Of a DNA stretch of 40,268 bases, positions 6,762 through 29,712 are shown one piece after another. The stretch comes from an uncultured Clostridia bacterium (lineage in GTDB: Bacteria; Bacillota; Clostridia; Oscillospirales; Acutalibacteraceae): contig CAMVRG010000002.1 of the NCBI GenBank assembly GCA_947169815.1, positions 1 to 40,268 on the forward strand. The letters run 5' to 3'. The notes under the pieces were generated by a model. The model saw only the letters and a program-made list of their open reading frames with translations. It searched no databases and was not told the origin of the DNA. The position numbers were made by a program, and so were the translations under genes. Position 1 is the first letter of the stretch. Every line of letters begins with the position of its first letter.

Positions 6762-8000
6762 TTAAAAAGCAGTATTAAGAAGAGTGATACCGTCAATCTG
6801 TACGTCGAAGTAAGGAGCTGAACGGAATTCTGACTCGTGGAAGAAGCCGTCCTTAACTACCTCTGTGTCGCCCTTGAACTCAGCGTCTGTATCAACGTCA
6901 GCCTGATAGGTGTCAAGAGTCTTGCCTTTAACCGTGAAGTTAGCTGTATCGAATACGTGAACGGAACCGTCCTCAAGGCCCTTCTTAACCTCGTCAATCT
7001 TAGCCTGAGTATCCTTAGCGGCAGCCTGCTCGTTAACCTCTGTGAGCTCAACGGAGCCTGTTGCGATAGTGCCTGTCCAGTCAGCGTCGATAGCTTCGCC
7101 CTTCTGAACCTGACCTACCATATACTTGAAATAAGGAGCCCAGTTAATTCTTGAAGATACGATAAATGTATTCGGGCAAGCGTCCTTTGTTGAACCGTTG
7201 TAGGAAATGTCGGGGATACCTGCGTTTTCACAAGCGGTGGGAGCGCCCATTGAGTCAGCGTGCTGTGAAATAAGGTCAGCACCGCCGTCGATAAGAGCCT
7301 GAGCAGCTTCCTTCTCAGCAGCCTCGTCATACCATGAGCCTGTGAACTTAACGTCCATGATAACGTCGGGGCATACGCTCTTAGCGCCGAGATAGAATGA
7401 TGTGTAACCGCTGATAACCTCTGCATAAGTATAAGCGCCTACATAACCCATCTTCGGAACTTCGCCCTTAAGCTTTCCTGCTTCCTTGATTTCGTTGAGC
7501 TTGAGACCTGCTGCAACGCCGGCAAGATATCTGCCCTCATAGATAGAAGCGAAAGCATTGTGGAAATTGGGAAGGTTTTCGGTGTGAGCCTTTGTACCTG
7601 TTGCGTGACAGAACTCTACGTCCTTGAATTCCTTAGCAGCCTGAATAAGGAAATCCTCGTGGCTGAAGGAGTCAGCGAATACGATGTTGCAGCCCTGGTC
7701 AACAAGGTCGGCAGCAGCCTCGTAGCACTCGTTGCTCTCGGGAACGTTAGTCTTGAGAACATACTCTACGCCGAGCTCTTCGCAAGCTTCCTTAGCGCCG
7801 TTGATGAAGTTAAGGTCATAGGTTGAGTTTTCGTCGTGTAAGAAGATGAATCCAACCTTAACAGCCTTAGCGTCTTCGGCAGCCTTTGTTGTGCTCTCTG
7901 CTTCTCCGCCGTTTCCGCCCTTGGAGCAAGCAACAAAAATGCCTGCTACTGCGAGGAGAACTGCGAGAACGATAGCAACAATTTTCTTTGAGTTTTTCAT
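6762..8000 (-). CDS. BMP-family (BmpA/PnrA/NupN-like) substrate-binding lipoprotein
   Basis: The extracytoplasmic nucleoside receptor of the transporter, 412 residues. A lipoprotein signal MKNSKKIVAIVLAVLLAVAG ends in lipobox FVAC, with lipidated Cys about 25, followed by a Gly/Glu/Ser linker. The BMP fold begins at VKVGFIFLHDENSTYDLNFINGA. Later motifs include ADSFSHEDF, GTKAHTENLPNFHNAFASIYEGRYLAGVAAG and VGAYTYAEVISGYTSFYLGAKSV. I chose ATG at 8000 because GGAGGG lies 7 nt upstream; the longer ORF start at 8015 would place that ribosome site inside the coding sequence. It sits 59 bp downstream of xpt and is presumably co-transcribed. Confidence 0.93.
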   Translation of the reverse strand: MKNSKKIVAIVLAVLLAVAGIFVACSKGGNGGEAESTTKAAEDAKAVKVGFIFLHDENSTYDLNFINGAKEACEELGVEYVLKTNVPESNECYEAAADLVDQGCNIVFADSFSHEDFLIQAAKEFKDVEFCHATGTKAHTENLPNFHNAFASIYEGRYLAGVAAGLKLNEIKEAGKLKGEVPKMGYVGAYTYAEVISGYTSFYLGAKSVCPDVIMDVKFTGSWYDEAAEKEAAQALIDGGADLISQHADSMGAPTACENAGIPDISYNGSTKDACPNTFIVSSRINWAPYFKYMVGQVQKGEAIDADWTGTIATGSVELTEVNEQAAAKDTQAKIDEVKKGLEDGSVHVFDTANFTVKGKTLDTYQADVDTDAEFKGDTEVVKDGFFHESEFRSAPYFDVQIDGITLLNTAF

Positions 8001-8059
8001 TCGTTTTCCCTCCAAAAAATAATATGTTTATATTACAAGGCCGAATTGCCTTAATAACC

Positions 8060-8635
8060 TTATCTGAATACGATTTCGCCCGTATCAGCGTTCATGCTTT
8101 CAACTATCGCAAGGGATTCAACCTTGATTCCCTCTTCGCGGAGCTTATCGCCGCCGTGCTGGTAACCCTTTTCAATTACCGTTCCGCAGCCCGCAAGCTC
8201 GGCGCCGCTGTCCTTAACGAGCTGAATAAGACCTCTGAGCGCGTTTCCTATCGCAAGAAAATCGTCGACGATAAGAACCCTGTCGCCCTCGCCGAGGAAC
8301 CTTCTGGAAATCATAATGTCGTAGGTAGTACCGTGTGTAAACGATTCGACCTGAGTCGTGTAAACGTCGCCCGCGATGTTTTTAGTCTTTGTTTTTTTTG
8401 CAAAAACTAAAGGGCATCCAAATTCCTGCGCGACAAACGCACCGATAGCAATGCCCGATGCCTCTATTGTCAGGATTTTGTTTACGCCCTCGTCCTTGAA
8501 CAATCTGTGAAATTCTTTTCCGACCTCGTGTAAAAACACGCAGTCTATCTGGTGGTTGAGAAAGCAGTCTACCTTTAAGATATTGCCCTCGTATACTTCA
8601 CCCTCATCAAGAATTTTCTTTTTAAGAAGGTCCAT
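8060..8635 (-). CDS. xpt: Xanthine phosphoribosyltransferase
   Basis: Makes XMP from xanthine and PRPP in purine salvage. The protein has 191 residues from the chosen ATG, close to B. subtilis Xpt. Diagnostic segments are ILKVDCFLNHQID near the N-terminus, ILTIEASGIAIGAFVAQEFGCPLVFAKK, the PRPP motif VLIVDDFLAIGNAL (about 124-137) and GCGTVIEKGYQHGGDKL. The ORF track begins at a GTG four codons earlier. GGTGGTGAG overlaps that GTG and sits just upstream of the ATG, so the ATG is preferred, and it aligns with the known Xpt N-terminus. It is the first gene of the salvage operon. Confidence 0.94.
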   Translation of the reverse strand: MDLLKKKILDEGEVYEGNILKVDCFLNHQIDCVFLHEVGKEFHRLFKDEGVNKILTIEASGIAIGAFVAQEFGCPLVFAKKTKTKNIAGDVYTTQVESFTHGTTYDIMISRRFLGEGDRVLIVDDFLAIGNALRGLIQLVKDSGAELAGCGTVIEKGYQHGGDKLREEGIKVESLAIVESMNADTGEIVFR

Positions 8636-8677
8636 AAGACTCACCACCGATAATTTATAATTTTAAATTACACAACT

Positions 8678-8706
8678 ATAATATAGGAAATCATTTTTAA
8701 TTTCAA
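8678..8706 (-). promoter_or_regulatory. Sigma-A type promoter of the purine salvage operon
   Basis: On the minus strand TTGAAA (8701-8706), a 17-bp spacer and TATTAT (8678-8683) precede xpt. The predicted transcript starts about 8671, giving a leader of only about 35 nt. That is too short for the roughly 70-nt purine riboswitch aptamer usually found before xpt in Bacilli. Confidence 0.65.
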
Positions 8707-8754
8707 CAATATTTTCAAATTGATACCGTTTTTTAATTTTTTTCAGTTTTACAC

Positions 8755-8780
8755 ATAAAAACCGACGAAAATATCGTCGG
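8755..8780 (-). terminator. Intrinsic terminator of the secreted hydrolase gene
   Basis: Stem CCGACGA/TCGTCGG with loop AAAAT or its complement, followed on the minus strand by TTTTTA. It lies 24 bp past the stop of the hydrolase gene and insulates the xpt promoter. Confidence 0.75.
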
Positions 8781-8803
8781 CTAGTTGTTTATTTTGCTGA
8801 TAT

Positions 8804-9973
8804 TTATTTTACCTTGACGGTCTTTACCGCGCTGTATGTCGAATAATGTGTCTTCTTTCCGACCTTCGTATACGCCCTTACTCTTACATAGTATTTACCC
8901 TTTTTGAGCTTTTTAACCGTCTTTTTAACGCTCTTTGCGCCTTTTACGGTTACGGTCTTTTTATTCCTGAAGCTCTTGCTCTTCGAGTATTCGAGCTTGT
9001 AGCCGTTTGCGGTATTTACCTTAGCCCATTTAGCGTAAAGCGCAGCCTTCTTTCCCTTGGCGGTTTTAAGCTTTATGCTCTTTTTCGTGAGCTTGTAATT
9101 AAAGTCCTGCCATTCGGGGTTTGCCTTAAGCTCGGGTGCCGCGCCCGTAAATGCCTTCGCCGCAAACTCGTCGCCGTAAAAGCGGTAATCAAACCACGCA
9201 AGCATATACGGATGCATCGTCTCAAAGCTTCCTGCATGCTCAACGTCCTTCATTCTCGCCATATATACGTCGCTCTGAATGTTCCTGAAATTCGGCTTAA
9301 GGCTTGTGTCGATAGGGCAGATAAACTTGCTGTCCGTCATGCCCGTTCCCGCTACCAGACAGGTCGGAACCTTAACCTTCGTTGTATCGTAGGGACAGTT
9401 CTGCATTTCCTCTATCGCGTTTGTCGGAATTGACGCGGCGTAAATCGCCTTGTAGTACCTTGCGTTAGCGTACTTTTCGGGGTCTGAAAGATTTACCGTG
9501 CAGGCGGCACCCTGGGAGTGTCCCGCAAGACCGACTCTGCTTAAATCAACCTTGCCGTAAAGCCTGCTCTTTGAGTCCTTGCTGAGGGCTATGAGCTTAG
9601 TCATACCCGCGTCCATGCTCGCGCCCGTTCCGCAGTCCTTATCGGTATTCGTAAGGGCGATATAGCCGTAAGACGCCGCCTTTGAAAGAAATCCCGCGGT
9701 GTTGTTCTGCATGGTATAATTGGAGCCCGTTCCGTTACAGTAAAGAATAACGGGGCGCTTGCTCATTTTTTTAATATCCTTCGGATACCATACTTTATAA
9801 GTAAAATCGTTTTCATTAAGCGTAAACTCAAAGCTGCTGACCTTGTATTTTCCGTTTGCCGAATAATGCGCGAACACCTCTTTTTTGTTCGCCGCATACG
9901 CAAATGAGGCAACGCTCATCGCGCAGACAAGCATTACAAACGCAAGAAATAATGAAGCAATTCTCTTTTTCAT
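8804..9973 (-). CDS. Secreted alpha/beta hydrolase with C-terminal FN3-like domain
   Basis: A 389-residue exported protein. Signal peptide MKKRIASLFLAFVMLVCAMSVASFAYA is followed by an alpha/beta hydrolase domain (about 30-290) resembling chlorophyllase or PAF-acetylhydrolase-type lipases/esterases. RPVILYCNGTGSN is the oxyanion-hole strand and GLAGHSQGAA is the nucleophile elbow with Ser about 153. DVEHAGSFETMHP near 245-255 probably gives the catalytic His. The C-terminal 85 residues are very Lys/Tyr/Val rich and end in YYVRVRAYTKVGKKTHYSTYSAVKTVKV, a fibronectin-III-like beta domain common at the Clostridia surface. The substrate is unknown. The ATG is preceded by GGGAGG and the gene is monocistronic between its own promoter and terminator. 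Confidence 0.82.
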   Translation of the reverse strand: MKKRIASLFLAFVMLVCAMSVASFAYAANKKEVFAHYSANGKYKVSSFEFTLNENDFTYKVWYPKDIKKMSKRPVILYCNGTGSNYTMQNNTAGFLSKAASYGYIALTNTDKDCGTGASMDAGMTKLIALSKDSKSRLYGKVDLSRVGLAGHSQGAACTVNLSDPEKYANARYYKAIYAASIPTNAIEEMQNCPYDTTKVKVPTCLVAGTGMTDSKFICPIDTSLKPNFRNIQSDVYMARMKDVEHAGSFETMHPYMLAWFDYRFYGDEFAAKAFTGAAPELKANPEWQDFNYKLTKKSIKLKTAKGKKAALYAKWAKVNTANGYKLEYSKSKSFRNKKTVTVKGAKSVKKTVKKLKKGKYYVRVRAYTKVGKKTHYSTYSAVKTVKVK

Positions 9974-23251: not shown

Positions 23252-23280
23252 AAAAGAGGCTGATTACTCAGCCTCTTTTT
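23252..23280. terminator. Bidirectional terminator
   Basis: AAAAGAGGCTGA-TTAC-TCAGCCTCTTTTT between convergent genes. The stem includes the stop codon of the minus-strand FN3 protein. Confidence 0.85.
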
Positions 23281-24445
23281 CCGTATCCTCAACCTCGGGA
23301 TACTGTTCAATTTTTACAATGTCGCCTCTGAACTGTTCAAGGTTACCGTAGCTTCCCGCAATTCCTCTCGGGAGCTTACCCTTTTCAATATAGAACTCCA
23401 TAATGTCCTTATTGTTAACGGCGTACTGGTGCTTTTCGTCGGTATGTCTGTTCGCCTTCTGGTCACAGAGAATACAGTTAAGCTCCTTAATCTCCTCGCC
23501 GTCCTGAAGCGTAATACGGTATTTTGTTCCTATCTTGGTTCCGTAGAACGAGCCGAGAGCAATACAGTAAAAACCGTCAACCATACGGATTCCCGTTTCC
23601 TCGTCGGTATAGCACTCCTCGGAATTGAGAAGCTTGTACTGAGGAGTACTCTTTGCGGTTACCGCCTTATAATAAGCGTAGGTTTTTGTTGCGCCGCTTA
23701 TTCCCTCGGGAAGCTCAAAGTTTTTAAGCGTTTTTGCCTCAACCGTGCGGCTGACCTTGCTTACGTTCTTTCTGTTCGCTCTGTTTGTAACGCATTTTAC
23801 TCTGTAAGAGTAAGTTGTTTCTTCTTTTACATCAGTATCGGTATAAGTATCCGAATTTACCTCGGCGAGTTTTTCAAATTTTCCGCCGTTTTCGCTTCTG
23901 TAAAGCCATACCCTCGCAACGCTTTCGGTATGTCTTATTCTGAGCTCAACCGAATCCGAAGCGACGTGCTTAAGAGCAACCGACGCGGTTTTTACCGCGG
24001 TTGTAAAGCTTACCTCGGAAAGCCCCTCCATAGTAGCGGCGTTGAAAATTCCGAAGCGGTAATCCGTATCCTCGTCAAGCCCGCTGAGCTGAAGCTCGTT
24101 TTCGGTCGTATTGAGGTATTCCTCCCAGCAGTGGTTAATTACGTTATACCTGTAAACGGCATAGCTTAAAATAAGCGTGTCGCTTTCCCAGCTGAGTTTC
24201 GCGCTGTCAGTCGTAACTGAATCGGCTGTTAAGATAAAGCCCTCTTTCGCTCTTATAGGCTTGTGCATAGCGGCTATTATTCTCGAATCCTCTTCTGCCT
24301 GAACCGCCTGATTCTTAAACGGTATTCCGAACGGAAGGTCAAACGCGAGCGCGTCAACGCTGCCCGAAACCGCCATTATAAGAACGAGTATTACCGATAC
24401 GATTTTTGCTGATTTAAGTCTGATAAAATCGTCTCCTTTTTGCAT
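23264..24445 (-). CDS. Secreted protein with FN3-like domains and a C-terminal barrel-like domain
   Basis: A 393-residue exported protein of unknown function. A signal peptide (AKIVSVILVLIMAVSGSVDALA) is followed by two fibronectin-III-like domains (about 68-150, with DSAKLSWESDTLILSYAVYRYN; about 152-240, with TYSYRVKCVTNR). The last 150 residues form a separate domain, FYCIALGSFYGTKIGTKYRITLQDGEEIKELNCILCDQKANRHTDEKHQY, a pattern I associate with surface proteins of Clostridia and possibly a double-psi barrel like the 3D domain (tentative). The start ATG has GGAGGG very close (3-4 nt) and a second GGAG just inside the gene without an ATG after it. It is divergent from ribU. Confidence 0.75.
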   Translation of the reverse strand: MQKGDDFIRLKSAKIVSVILVLIMAVSGSVDALAFDLPFGIPFKNQAVQAEEDSRIIAAMHKPIRAKEGFILTADSVTTDSAKLSWESDTLILSYAVYRYNVINHCWEEYLNTTENELQLSGLDEDTDYRFGIFNAATMEGLSEVSFTTAVKTASVALKHVASDSVELRIRHTESVARVWLYRSENGGKFEKLAEVNSDTYTDTDVKEETTYSYRVKCVTNRANRKNVSKVSRTVEAKTLKNFELPEGISGATKTYAYYKAVTAKSTPQYKLLNSEECYTDEETGIRMVDGFYCIALGSFYGTKIGTKYRITLQDGEEIKELNCILCDQKANRHTDEKHQYAVNNKDIMEFYIEKGKLPRGIAGSYGNLEQFRGDIVKIEQYPEVEDTEKEAE

Positions 24446-26485: not shown

Positions 26486-26514
26486 TTGACATCCCCTCTG
26501 CGTTCTATTATAAT
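26486..26514 (+). promoter_or_regulatory. Promoter of the E2-like acyltransferase gene
   Basis: TTGACA (26486-26491), 17 bp, TATAAT (26509-26514), both perfect. Confidence 0.88.
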
Positions 26515-26543: not shown

Positions 26544-28133
26544 ATGGCAAAAAAGGATAACGTAATCAAGACCGAGCATTTCGGAATTCAGCGTAAAATC
26601 GTTGCGAATATGACTACCGAAAGCTGGCAGAATATTCCCCACGTTACATATACCTACGAGCCCGACGTAACCGAGTTTATGACTCAGTACAAACGTCTTA
26701 ACGAGGGCGTTGAAAAGGAAAACAGGATAACCGTAAATACGCTTATGCTCAAGGTTATCTGCGAGGGACTTAAGGCGTGTCCCGCTATGAACGCCCATAT
26801 TGACTTTGATAAAAAGTATGTAAGGGGCGTAATTCATACCCTTTCCGAGATTAATATTTCAATGCCTATGGTGCTTCCCACGGGCGAGATGATGACGATT
26901 AACCTTCATAATTTCGAGAATAAAAACCTTGACGATATGGTCGATTATCTTAAAGACGTTAACCGACGTATGGCTAACACAAATCTCAACGAGGTTATGT
27001 TCGACGTTTCTATGGATAATACGATTACGGGGTTAAAAGAGGGTAAAATCGCCCAGACCATTAACCGTATAATCGGCTCAAAAACGGGTAAGCACAAGGT
27101 TAAAACCCTTAAGGGCAAAGAGAAAAAGGCTTACGAGGCTATCCCCGAAACCGACCGTCTTACCAAGCACGATATTGAACAGGGCTCAATTACAATTTCT
27201 AATATCGGCTCCGTTTACCGTGAGCAGAGAGGCGCCGCCGCGCTGATTGAGATTATTCCTCCCCAGGTTACGGCTATCGCCGTCGGCGCGGTACAGGATA
27301 AGCCCGTCGTTATCATAAACGAAAATGACGAAAAGGAAATCGCTATCCGCCAGGTTCTCCCCTTTACTATCGTATTTGACCACAGAGCGCTTGATTTCGG
27401 CGATATCGTTCCGTTTATCAAAAAGCTTGACGAAATCTTCGAGGCGCCCGAGGTTATGTTCAGCTGGAAGCGCGAACAGACTATTACCGCGGCTGAAATT
27501 GAAGAGATTAAGGTTGAGCGCGTTGAGCGTGAGACTAAGTTCGAGGAAAGCAAGAAGCGTGAAAAGGAAAGACGCGAGGCTGAGCGCGACGCTCAGAAGG
27601 CGGGCGACCGCGCTGTAAAGGCGGAAAAAGAGGCGGAAAAAGCGCTTAAGGAAGCCGAGGAGCGCGCTGCCAAGGCTGAAAGCGAGCTTGCCGAGGCGCA
27701 CGAAAAAGCAGATAAAAAGGCACTCAGAGAGGCTGAAAAGGCTGAAAAGGACGCTATCGAGGCTGAGGAAAAGGCAAAGCGCGAGATTGAAAAAATAAAG
27801 GCTGCCGCCGCTGAAAAGATTGAAAAGGCTAAAAAGGAAGCGGAGGACAGAAAAGAAAAGGCTATCCGCAACGCAGAAAAGGCGCAGGAGGAAGCTCTCG
27901 CAAAGGCAGACAAGGCCCGTCAGGAAGCCGAAAAGAAGCGTAGGGAAGCCGAGGCTAAGAAGGAAAAGGCTCTCGCAGGGGCGGAAAAGGATAAAAAGGA
28001 CGCGCTCGAAAAGGCGCAGAGAGAAAAGGAAAAGGTTCAAAAAGAGCTTGAAAAAGCAAGAGCCGAGGCTGAAAAAGCTAAGGCAAAAGCAGAAGCCGCT
28101 CAGGAAAAGGTCGACTCCTTTAACGGGGAATAA
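26544..28133 (+). CDS. Lipoyl-less E2 acyltransferase core fused to a long charged helix
   Basis: A 529-residue protein. Residues 1 to about 310 match the catalytic domain of 2-oxoacid dehydrogenase E2 subunits: IQRKIVANMTTESWQNIPHVTYTYEPDVT at the N-terminus, ITISNIGSVYREQRGAAALIEIIPPQVTAIAVGAV, and the active-site segment FDHRALDFGDIVPF with catalytic His. The usual DHRxxDG is altered by one inserted Phe. No lipoyl or E1/E3-binding domain precedes it, and no pdh/bkd genes adjoin. From about 315 to 529 the chain is almost only Glu, Lys, Ala, Arg, Asp and Gln (KAEKEAEKALKEAEERAAKA and similar), predicted as a single alpha-helix or coiled coil. A role as an acyltransferase scaffold is inference. 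AAAGGG precedes the ATG. Confidence 0.82.
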   Translation: MAKKDNVIKTEHFGIQRKIVANMTTESWQNIPHVTYTYEPDVTEFMTQYKRLNEGVEKENRITVNTLMLKVICEGLKACPAMNAHIDFDKKYVRGVIHTLSEINISMPMVLPTGEMMTINLHNFENKNLDDMVDYLKDVNRRMANTNLNEVMFDVSMDNTITGLKEGKIAQTINRIIGSKTGKHKVKTLKGKEKKAYEAIPETDRLTKHDIEQGSITISNIGSVYREQRGAAALIEIIPPQVTAIAVGAVQDKPVVIINENDEKEIAIRQVLPFTIVFDHRALDFGDIVPFIKKLDEIFEAPEVMFSWKREQTITAAEIEEIKVERVERETKFEESKKREKERREAERDAQKAGDRAVKAEKEAEKALKEAEERAAKAESELAEAHEKADKKALREAEKAEKDAIEAEEKAKREIEKIKAAAAEKIEKAKKEAEDRKEKAIRNAEKAQEEALAKADKARQEAEKKRREAEAKKEKALAGAEKDKKDALEKAQREKEKVQKELEKARAEAEKAKAKAEAAQEKVDSFNGE

Positions 28134-28138
28134 GATAA

Positions 28139-28168
28139 AAAGAGGTAACCCGTGTTACCTCTTTTTTA
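28139..28168 (+). terminator. Intrinsic terminator of the E2-like gene
   Basis: AGAGGTAAC-CCGT-GTTACCTCT followed by TTTTTT. Confidence 0.9.
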
Positions 28169-28197: not shown

Positions 28198-28227
28198 ATA
28201 ATCAGAATTATGAAAGGACTGAGCCAT

Positions 28228-29712
28228 ATGAAAAAGCTCCCCCTTCAAATTTTAATATCGTTTATCCTTATTCTTGCCCTCGCTGCGCCGATTTTCGTTT
28301 TCGGCTATACCAAAGAGGACGAGGGCGAAGCTGCGCTTTTACAGGAGGGCGAGCTTGATATTGAGAGCGCCGACCTTTCAGGGTATACCCTTCCTCTGCG
28401 CTCAGCTTCTACGGTTGAGGACTGCTTATACGACGGTCTTATTTCACTTTCAGACAGAATAAATATCACGTCGTACAGCGTTTCCGTAAACGACATAGGC
28501 GCGGTTTATTCAGGCGTAATTAACAGCCACCCCGATTTATTCTTCGTATCGGGAGCATATTCAATCAGCTATTCTCCCGCTACAAATACCGTTCTCTCGA
28601 TTGCCCCGTCTTATAAACTGTCTTACGACGAGGCTATGGCAGCACTCGACGTATTTCACAGCGGCGCCGATAAAGCCCTCGCCGAGGTCGACAGCAGTAT
28701 GAACGATATACAAAAGGCGCTGACCATACACGACTATATGATTTCCGTTGCGGATTATCCGAACGTTTTTGACGAGGAAGGAAACTATTCTCAGGCGCTT
28801 GATAACGACGAGAATCACAACGCCTACGGATTTTTTAAAAATTACAGAGTCGTCTGTCAGGGCTTTACGCTTGCATATATTTATCTTATGAACCGTCTCG
28901 GTATCCCCTGCGTATACGTAGCGTCCGATACTATGAACCACTCCTGGAACCTTATAGAAATTGACGGCGCGTGGTACAACGTCGACGTTACCTTCGACAA
29001 TCACGACTACGATATGGATACAAACACATACGGCTCCGTTCTCCACTCGTATTTTCTTAAAAGCGATTCATATTTTTCAGGCAAAACGGGTATTCATTGG
29101 CATTACGGCGGAGTTCCCGATAACGGCTGCGCCGCGGTCAGCACCCTTTACGATACCGCCTTCTGGGACGACGTAACCTCGCGTATTTACACAATCGGCG
29201 GTGATTATTATTATCTTGACCCGCCGAACGCCGCAAGCGTTTATACCTTCCTTAAAAGGAGAACTCCCTCGGGCGAGGAGACGAATCTATGTACCGGCTT
29301 CACTTCGCTTCTCGTTAACTATTCCGGCGGCTTTCGCGACGAAAACGGCAATCCTCAGAGCTATACCTTCAGGGACCGTCTTGCAAGACTTACATATCTC
29401 GATAACCGCTTCTACGTAGCGGCTTCAAAAAATATTTATTCCGTCGTTCCAACGGGAAACGGCTATACGCGATACGATATCTGTACGCTTTCCGACTATC
29501 CGTCGGGGCTTGGTGTAAACGGTAAAAATAATCTTATTTATCATACAAGAAATACCGAAAACGCGCTTTACGAGCTTGATAAATATGAATTTTTTAAAGA
29601 CCATATAACGGCTGAAAAGGGCGTAAACTATAATAATTATCCCGATATTAACCTCGACGGCGTTATAAACGGAAAGGACGCCGCAAGCATAATTCACGAT
29701 ATAAATAACTAA
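28228..29712 (+). CDS. Secreted transglutaminase-like protein with one dockerin-type repeat
   Basis: A 494-residue exported protein. Signal peptide is MKKLPLQILISFILILALAAPIFVFG. A transglutaminase/protease-like core lies around 150-260: VVCQGFTLAYIYLMNRLGIPC (Cys210), MNHSWNLIEIDGAWYNVD (His238) and VDVTFDN (Asp253) give a complete Cys-His-Asp triad. Residues 280-470 look like a beta-rich display or propeller-like region with short repeats. The C-terminus NYPDINLDGVINGKDAASIIHDINN is a single calcium-binding dockerin-type repeat, half the normal dockerin. I chose ATG 28228 with AAAGGA upstream over the ORF-track ATG 28210. Protein cross-linking or peptidase activity at the cell surface is plausible; the substrate is unknown. 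Confidence 0.84.
   Translation: MKKLPLQILISFILILALAAPIFVFGYTKEDEGEAALLQEGELDIESADLSGYTLPLRSASTVEDCLYDGLISLSDRINITSYSVSVNDIGAVYSGVINSHPDLFFVSGAYSISYSPATNTVLSIAPSYKLSYDEAMAALDVFHSGADKALAEVDSSMNDIQKALTIHDYMISVADYPNVFDEEGNYSQALDNDENHNAYGFFKNYRVVCQGFTLAYIYLMNRLGIPCVYVASDTMNHSWNLIEIDGAWYNVDVTFDNHDYDMDTNTYGSVLHSYFLKSDSYFSGKTGIHWHYGGVPDNGCAAVSTLYDTAFWDDVTSRIYTIGGDYYYLDPPNAASVYTFLKRRTPSGEETNLCTGFTSLLVNYSGGFRDENGNPQSYTFRDRLARLTYLDNRFYVAASKNIYSVVPTGNGYTRYDICTLSDYPSGLGVNGKNNLIYHTRNTENALYELDKYEFFKDHITAEKGVNYNNYPDINLDGVINGKDAASIIHDINN

Follow-up and report, generated by a model that had tools for sequence, protein, structure and literature searches.

The window, a 40,268-nt stretch on contig C2 of a Clostridia MAG (1.76 Mb in 165 contigs, 87.8% complete), contained a gene predicted to encode an E2-type acyltransferase core continued by a long charged C-terminal tail. 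The gene and the features associated with it were located as follows:

26486..26514, plus strand: promoter TTGACA-17-TATAAT of the sigma-A-type consensus (12/12 match), with the end of the -10 element 29 nt from the ATG
26544-28133, plus strand: fusion open reading frame, ATG start, 529 aa
26544..27476, plus strand: core, residues 1-311, E2-type acyltransferase, assigned from PF00198, PDB sequence matches and AlphaFold/Foldseek
26976..27143, plus strand: insert of ~55 residues (approximately residues 145-200) separating the two PF00198 halves
27378..27398, plus strand: active-site motif D279-H280-R281-A-L-D284-F285, with D279, H280 and D284 conserved across the family cores
27477..28130, plus strand: tail, residues 312-529 (218 aa), Glu/Lys/Ala-rich, assigned from AlphaFold helices and composition
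28137..28166, plus strand: terminator-like hairpin AAAAAGAGGTAAC-ccgt-GTTACCTCTTTTT, just 3' of the fusion gene

The hairpin was listed on the minus strand; it is palindromic, and T's also trail on the plus strand. The perfect promoter and own terminator described in an earlier reading of the sequence alone (hereafter, the sequence-only reading) were both recovered, the latter as a terminator-like hairpin. With at most one mismatch, TTGACA-17-TATAAT preceded 8 of 27 tailed genes of the family and 11 of 43 untailed ones, and after shuffling of the upstream regions of family loci, no promoter match with fewer than two mismatches was obtained. The strength of this promoter suggests that the fusion protein is abundant. 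The gene upstream encoded a class II fructose-bisphosphate aldolase and that downstream a secreted-looking transglutaminase, neither of which gives a hint of a pathway for the fusion gene. The latter neighbour (nt 28210-29712), which adjoins the fusion gene, encoded a 500-aa protein with a signal-like start and a transglutaminase core, the C-terminus of which gave a weak dockerin-like match (E 0.018, below cut-off); farther upstream, a fibronectin type III domain was observed in a 393-aa protein (nt 23264-24445, minus strand).

The acyltransferase core in a genome lacking 2-oxoacid dehydrogenase components

PF00198 (2-oxoacid_dh) matched the core twice (E 2.2e-35 and 122.6 bits for the whole protein, cut-off 23) and was the only Pfam family to pass in the 529-aa protein; a lipoyl domain was not found, and no Pfam match to a peripheral subunit-binding domain was obtained in the fusion protein at E values up to 1. 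In a PDB sequence search, the core matched E2p structures. AlphaFold prediction of the core alone gave a pTM of 0.85 and a mean pLDDT of 84.8, and the Foldseek matches listed for this model were all E2 cores, the best being 7q5r_A (E 2.2e-18; TMt 0.82, target-normalised). The structure prediction of the monomer proposed in the sequence-only reading thus returned an E2 fold, not one unlike the E2 and chloramphenicol acetyltransferase (CAT) families. A short predicted helix, residues 302-308, sits at the position of the cage-forming C-terminal helix of E2s.

The insert, which is lineage-specific and had been overlooked in the sequence-only reading, was predicted by AlphaFold to form three helices (148-165, 169-180, and 191-198). 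It had no E2 counterpart, profile positions ~144-197 being unmatched in the PDB alignments shown, and it was conserved across the family with many invariant residues (V155, T160, G167, G178, G182).

The active-site segment, FDHRALDFGD, had been read as one residue longer than the E2 motif DHRxxDG. It is instead in register (D279-H280-R281-x-x-D284), with F285 replacing the Gly, and this position was occupied by F, Y, M, A, L or C across the family. Asp279, His280, and Asp284 were invariant among 65 family cores, and R281 was present in at least 90%. The three invariant residues are the equivalents of Asp374, His375, and Asp379 in E. coli E2o, where substitution with Ala leaves 2.1%, 2.1%, and 9.5% of the activity, respectively (PMC5986005). 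Since the motif residues are conserved and the E. coli E2o Ala mutants are nearly inactive, the core is probably a working enzyme; dN/dS for the core was 0.02-0.08 in pairs with unsaturated dS. As the His of E2 has been argued to stabilise the oxyanion, unlike the general base of CAT (PMC5986005), CAT-style chemistry is not to be presumed.

No lipoyl, E1 or E3 gene had been noticed near the fusion gene, and this absence was found to hold genome-wide and in the genus. The sole biotinyl/lipoyl-type domain in the window's genome, considered as a possible lipoyl carrier, was that of a 119-aa protein with AMKMEN; this was rejected, as AMKMEN is the biotin motif and the protein a biotin carrier. GcvH was rejected as a hidden lipoyl acceptor because it was not found, the only match in the genome being sub-threshold and to the same 119-aa protein. 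The 22 genus relatives searched had at most one like-sized strong biotinyl/lipoyl match. For E1, matches in the genus did not exceed ~43 bits, whereas clear E1 genes from other families within the order scored 124-169 bits; the weak matches lay in frames sized like transketolase halves and related enzymes, which they may represent. For E3, no match in the genus passed the curated cut-off of 408.8 (the best in the window's genome had 40.9 bits), and matches above 460 bits were observed in six genomes from other families of the order. Close relatives with 97-99% completeness likewise lacked a lipoyl domain, E1, E3, and GcvH, so that the gap is not due to the partial state of the MAG. An E2 fold predicted in a genome without the lipoyl/E1/E3 system agrees with the stand-alone acyltransferase that the sequence-only reading had envisaged.

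Family members and their gene neighbourhoods

A pattern scan of named genomes yielded 253 relatives, and among the best 80 of these 253, which were kept, the nearest were MAGs of rumen and gut origin bearing the labels uncultured Eubacterium, Oscillospiraceae, and Ruminococcaceae. When 394 genomes from across the order were sampled, strong matches were confined to the window's own taxonomic family; outside this family, the order and phylum samples gave only weak matches, as strong as those given by ordinary E2s. Two E2-like copies per genome were common, and the second copy in the window's genome was untailed, with 306 aa and 50% identity. The literature searched contained nothing pertinent on E2-like proteins that stand alone or on such helix fusions.

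A search of genomes for the same fusion, as the sequence-only reading had recommended, found it in at least 27 named loci of related MAGs from separate assemblies. That reading had also allowed for relatives in which the helix is a separate gene; no homologue examined had this arrangement, and no charged-helix open reading frame was found in any forward frame downstream of the untailed relatives. In a maximum-likelihood tree of 93 cores, in which L086, possessing a 40-residue extension not of the charged-helix type, was counted as tailed, the tail label needed three changes, a number as low as this being reached in none of 500 shuffles. These changes may be explained most simply by one gain and two losses, which fits the untailed L015 and L071-L082, whose rows lie within groups of tailed ones, and one more loss is likely because L086 was labelled tailed without a charged-helix extension. 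As most family loci have no tail, the tail appears dispensable for core function.

Evidence from neighbouring genes belongs to the untailed paralogues. Directly upstream of these in 15 loci (L104, L107, L108, L110, L111, L113, L116, L120, L121, L124, L125, L127, L129, L131, and L132), which are from related species and so not independent, was a CoA-transferase gene (PF02550/PF13336), separated from the paralogue by 13-136 nt where measured; a good separate promoter was not visible in the two pairs with the shortest gaps (13 and 17 nt). Acyl-CoA ligase genes were located upstream of five further untailed paralogues, the ligase frame in L105 being broken. The untailed copy in the window's genome was divergent to an acyl-CoA ligase gene, followed further on by one for a 2-oxoacid:ferredoxin oxidoreductase subunit. 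Since the untailed paralogues adjoin CoA-transferase or acyl-CoA ligase genes, acyl-CoA is likely to be the donor. No gene for an acyl carrier protein was found between ligase and core, PF13336 CoA-transferase was absent from the window's genome, and tailed members had neither conserved neighbours beyond near relatives nor a conserved acyl-CoA neighbour.

Some further features of these loci were observed. The upstream gene in the 15 loci was of the acetyl-CoA hydrolase/transferase family, and several of these loci possessed, in the short gap, a perfect TTGACA-17-TATAAT for the untailed gene itself. The ligase divergent to the untailed gene of the window's genome (L044, nt 7269-9536) was encoded behind a fused XRE-type helix-turn-helix and cupin.

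The charged tail

As stated in the sequence-only reading, the core runs unbroken into the charged tail, the two being encoded in a single frame. The tail was composed of ~25% Glu, 24% Ala, 21% Lys, and 8% Arg, with zero Pro, a net charge of ~0, and large hydrophobics making up only ~10% of the residues. Two successive helices, 316-433 and 439-528, were predicted by AlphaFold, and the tail would measure ~31 nm if fully extended, at 1.5 angstrom per residue. Structure predictors readily call helix in low-complexity sequence, so that the predicted tail helix is weak evidence when taken alone. Opposite-charge pairs at i/i+4 numbered 28 and 28 in the two directions, compared with 18 ± 3 in shuffles.

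Apolar residues, mainly Ala, formed a stripe with a period of 3.62 along ~180 tail residues, and the large apolar residues shared the face with Ala. The Ala stripe of the window tail had a value of 0.47 versus a maximum of 0.32 in 1000 shuffles, and Ala periods of 3.61-3.64 across 160-270 residues were observed in 11 of the 12 orthologues tested. Tail apolar periodicity peaked at 3.60-3.65, with a power of 12-15 at 3.6 versus ~2 or less at 3.5. The periods required are 3.5 for a heptad coiled coil and 3.67 for a hendecad. Its ion pairs and stripe together set the tail apart from both a pure single alpha-helix and a heptad coil. Because the period of 3.62 is close to the pitch of the alpha-helix, the stripe is nearly straight, a geometry that would serve either straight bundling or docking.

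Values of dN/dS for the tail were 0.05 and 0.07 in two pairs with unsaturated dS; core and tail are both under purifying selection, the tail as a coding region. The tail diverged faster than the core (81% versus 95% identity to L054), and no match to it was found at E 1e-6 in other proteins of the genome or the genus sample. Complete tails, contig-cut ones left out, varied in length from ~160 to 310 residues. The longest, with 311 aa (L083, nt 7147-7668), possessed a 207-base direct tandem repeat of 2.5 copies that were 92% alike, so that this helix has grown through tandem duplication.

Proposed function and comparison with known systems

The best explanation, to which a probability of roughly 0.55 is assigned, is that the fusion gene encodes a soluble acyltransferase with the E2/CAT fold that depends on CoA, stands alone outside any 2-oxoacid dehydrogenase complex, and carries a long spacer or tether. 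The protein would be trimeric like other E2/CAT folds, would take acyl groups from acyl-CoA, and would transfer them to a small, soluble acceptor or a thiol in place of the lipoyl arm. This pairing of an acyl-CoA donor with an acceptor other than lipoyl is suggested by analogy with CAT; as the lipoyl arm is absent, the acyl group must go to either a free molecule or a second protein. The insert may contribute to the form of the acceptor site. The helix may be a stiff spacer or tether by which the enzyme, probably expressed at a high level, is kept close to a partner.

Other explanations differ mainly in what they make of the tail and of the catalytic residues. It is possible, if somewhat unlikely, that the enzyme is active but that the three tails of the trimer pack in parallel along the Ala stripe into a straight stalk, the protein being chiefly an assembly scaffold; the nearly straight stripe with Ala and large apolar residues on one face, its period shared by 11 of the 12 orthologues and its value above that of any shuffle, as well as the strong promoter, are consistent with this, but large hydrophobics are few, and the prediction was that of a monomer, whose stripe might just as well be a docking site for a partner. 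The picture drawn in the sequence-only reading, a 24- or 60-mer E2-like cage decorated with outward helical spokes, is distinctly unlikely. E2 cages rely on a hydrophobic C-terminal 3-10 helix (PMC10581250), and helix 302-308 of the predicted E2 fold is found where this helix would be; however, the contacts use the chain end, which is continued here by 218 residues, and some E2s, e.g. the trimeric one of C. glutamicum, form no cage (PMC10581250). For these two reasons, a free trimer would be at least as likely as a cage.

That the protein is a catalytically dead, E2-derived scaffold is very unlikely. A genome without a known substrate carrier and the replaced Gly of DHRxxDG might point in this direction, but the three residues important in E. 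coli E2o did not vary over 65 diverse cores, the dN/dS of the core was low, and paralogues have acyl-CoA gene neighbours, so that the loss of catalysis considered in the sequence-only reading is unsupported. The MAG source and the low complexity of the tail could be taken to indicate that two genes were artefactually joined or that the tail is an inconsequential product of composition. The chance of this is negligible: the fusion recurred in the 27 or more separately assembled loci, untailed close relatives had no separate helix frame or charged-helix remnant 3' of the gene, and the tail is conserved. An assembly or frame artefact was rejected on the first two of these grounds. Going beyond the preferred reading of a tethered stand-alone acyltransferase, a speculative and rather unlikely proposal is that, in anaerobic Clostridia of gut and rumen, an E2 core was recycled without any 2-oxoacid dehydrogenase machinery into a new family of stand-alone acyl-CoA enzymes with an insert, one branch of which would be a self-organising, rod-bearing particle with a straight, alanine-striped helical stalk that differs from classical coiled coils.

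With the E2 catalytic domain (PF00198; C. thermophilum E2p, 7q5r, and C. glutamicum AceF, 6zzi), the core shares the fold, the DHRxxD motif, and the order of secondary structure elements at ~20% identity to solved E2 structures, whereas the window protein is without a lipoyl or subunit-binding domain, its genome is without E1 and E3, and the ~55-residue insert, the 218-residue helical tail, and Phe for the motif Gly are additions of its own. An E2 core is kept as a conserved, often duplicated family, often behind a consensus promoter, where the lipoyl system is absent, so that the role of an E2 fold deprived of its swinging arm becomes testable. An active enzyme would represent an additional, unassigned acyl-CoA reaction in rumen and gut Clostridia. 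The resemblance to CAT is a mechanistic analogy only (stand-alone, acyl-CoA donor, and His-x-x-x-Asp motif), as neither the Pfam and NCBIfam scans nor the structural matches listed included a CAT. The tail differs from a heptad coiled coil in lacking a 3.5-residue apolar periodicity. With single alpha-helix spacers it shares a long charged helix with an excess of i/i+4 Glu-Lys pairs; however, it possesses a continuous Ala stripe (24% Ala) and is terminal, whereas those spacers bridge two folded domains. As a natural, length-variable charged helix with an Ala stripe, it should be of use in studying how single helices differ from straight bundles.
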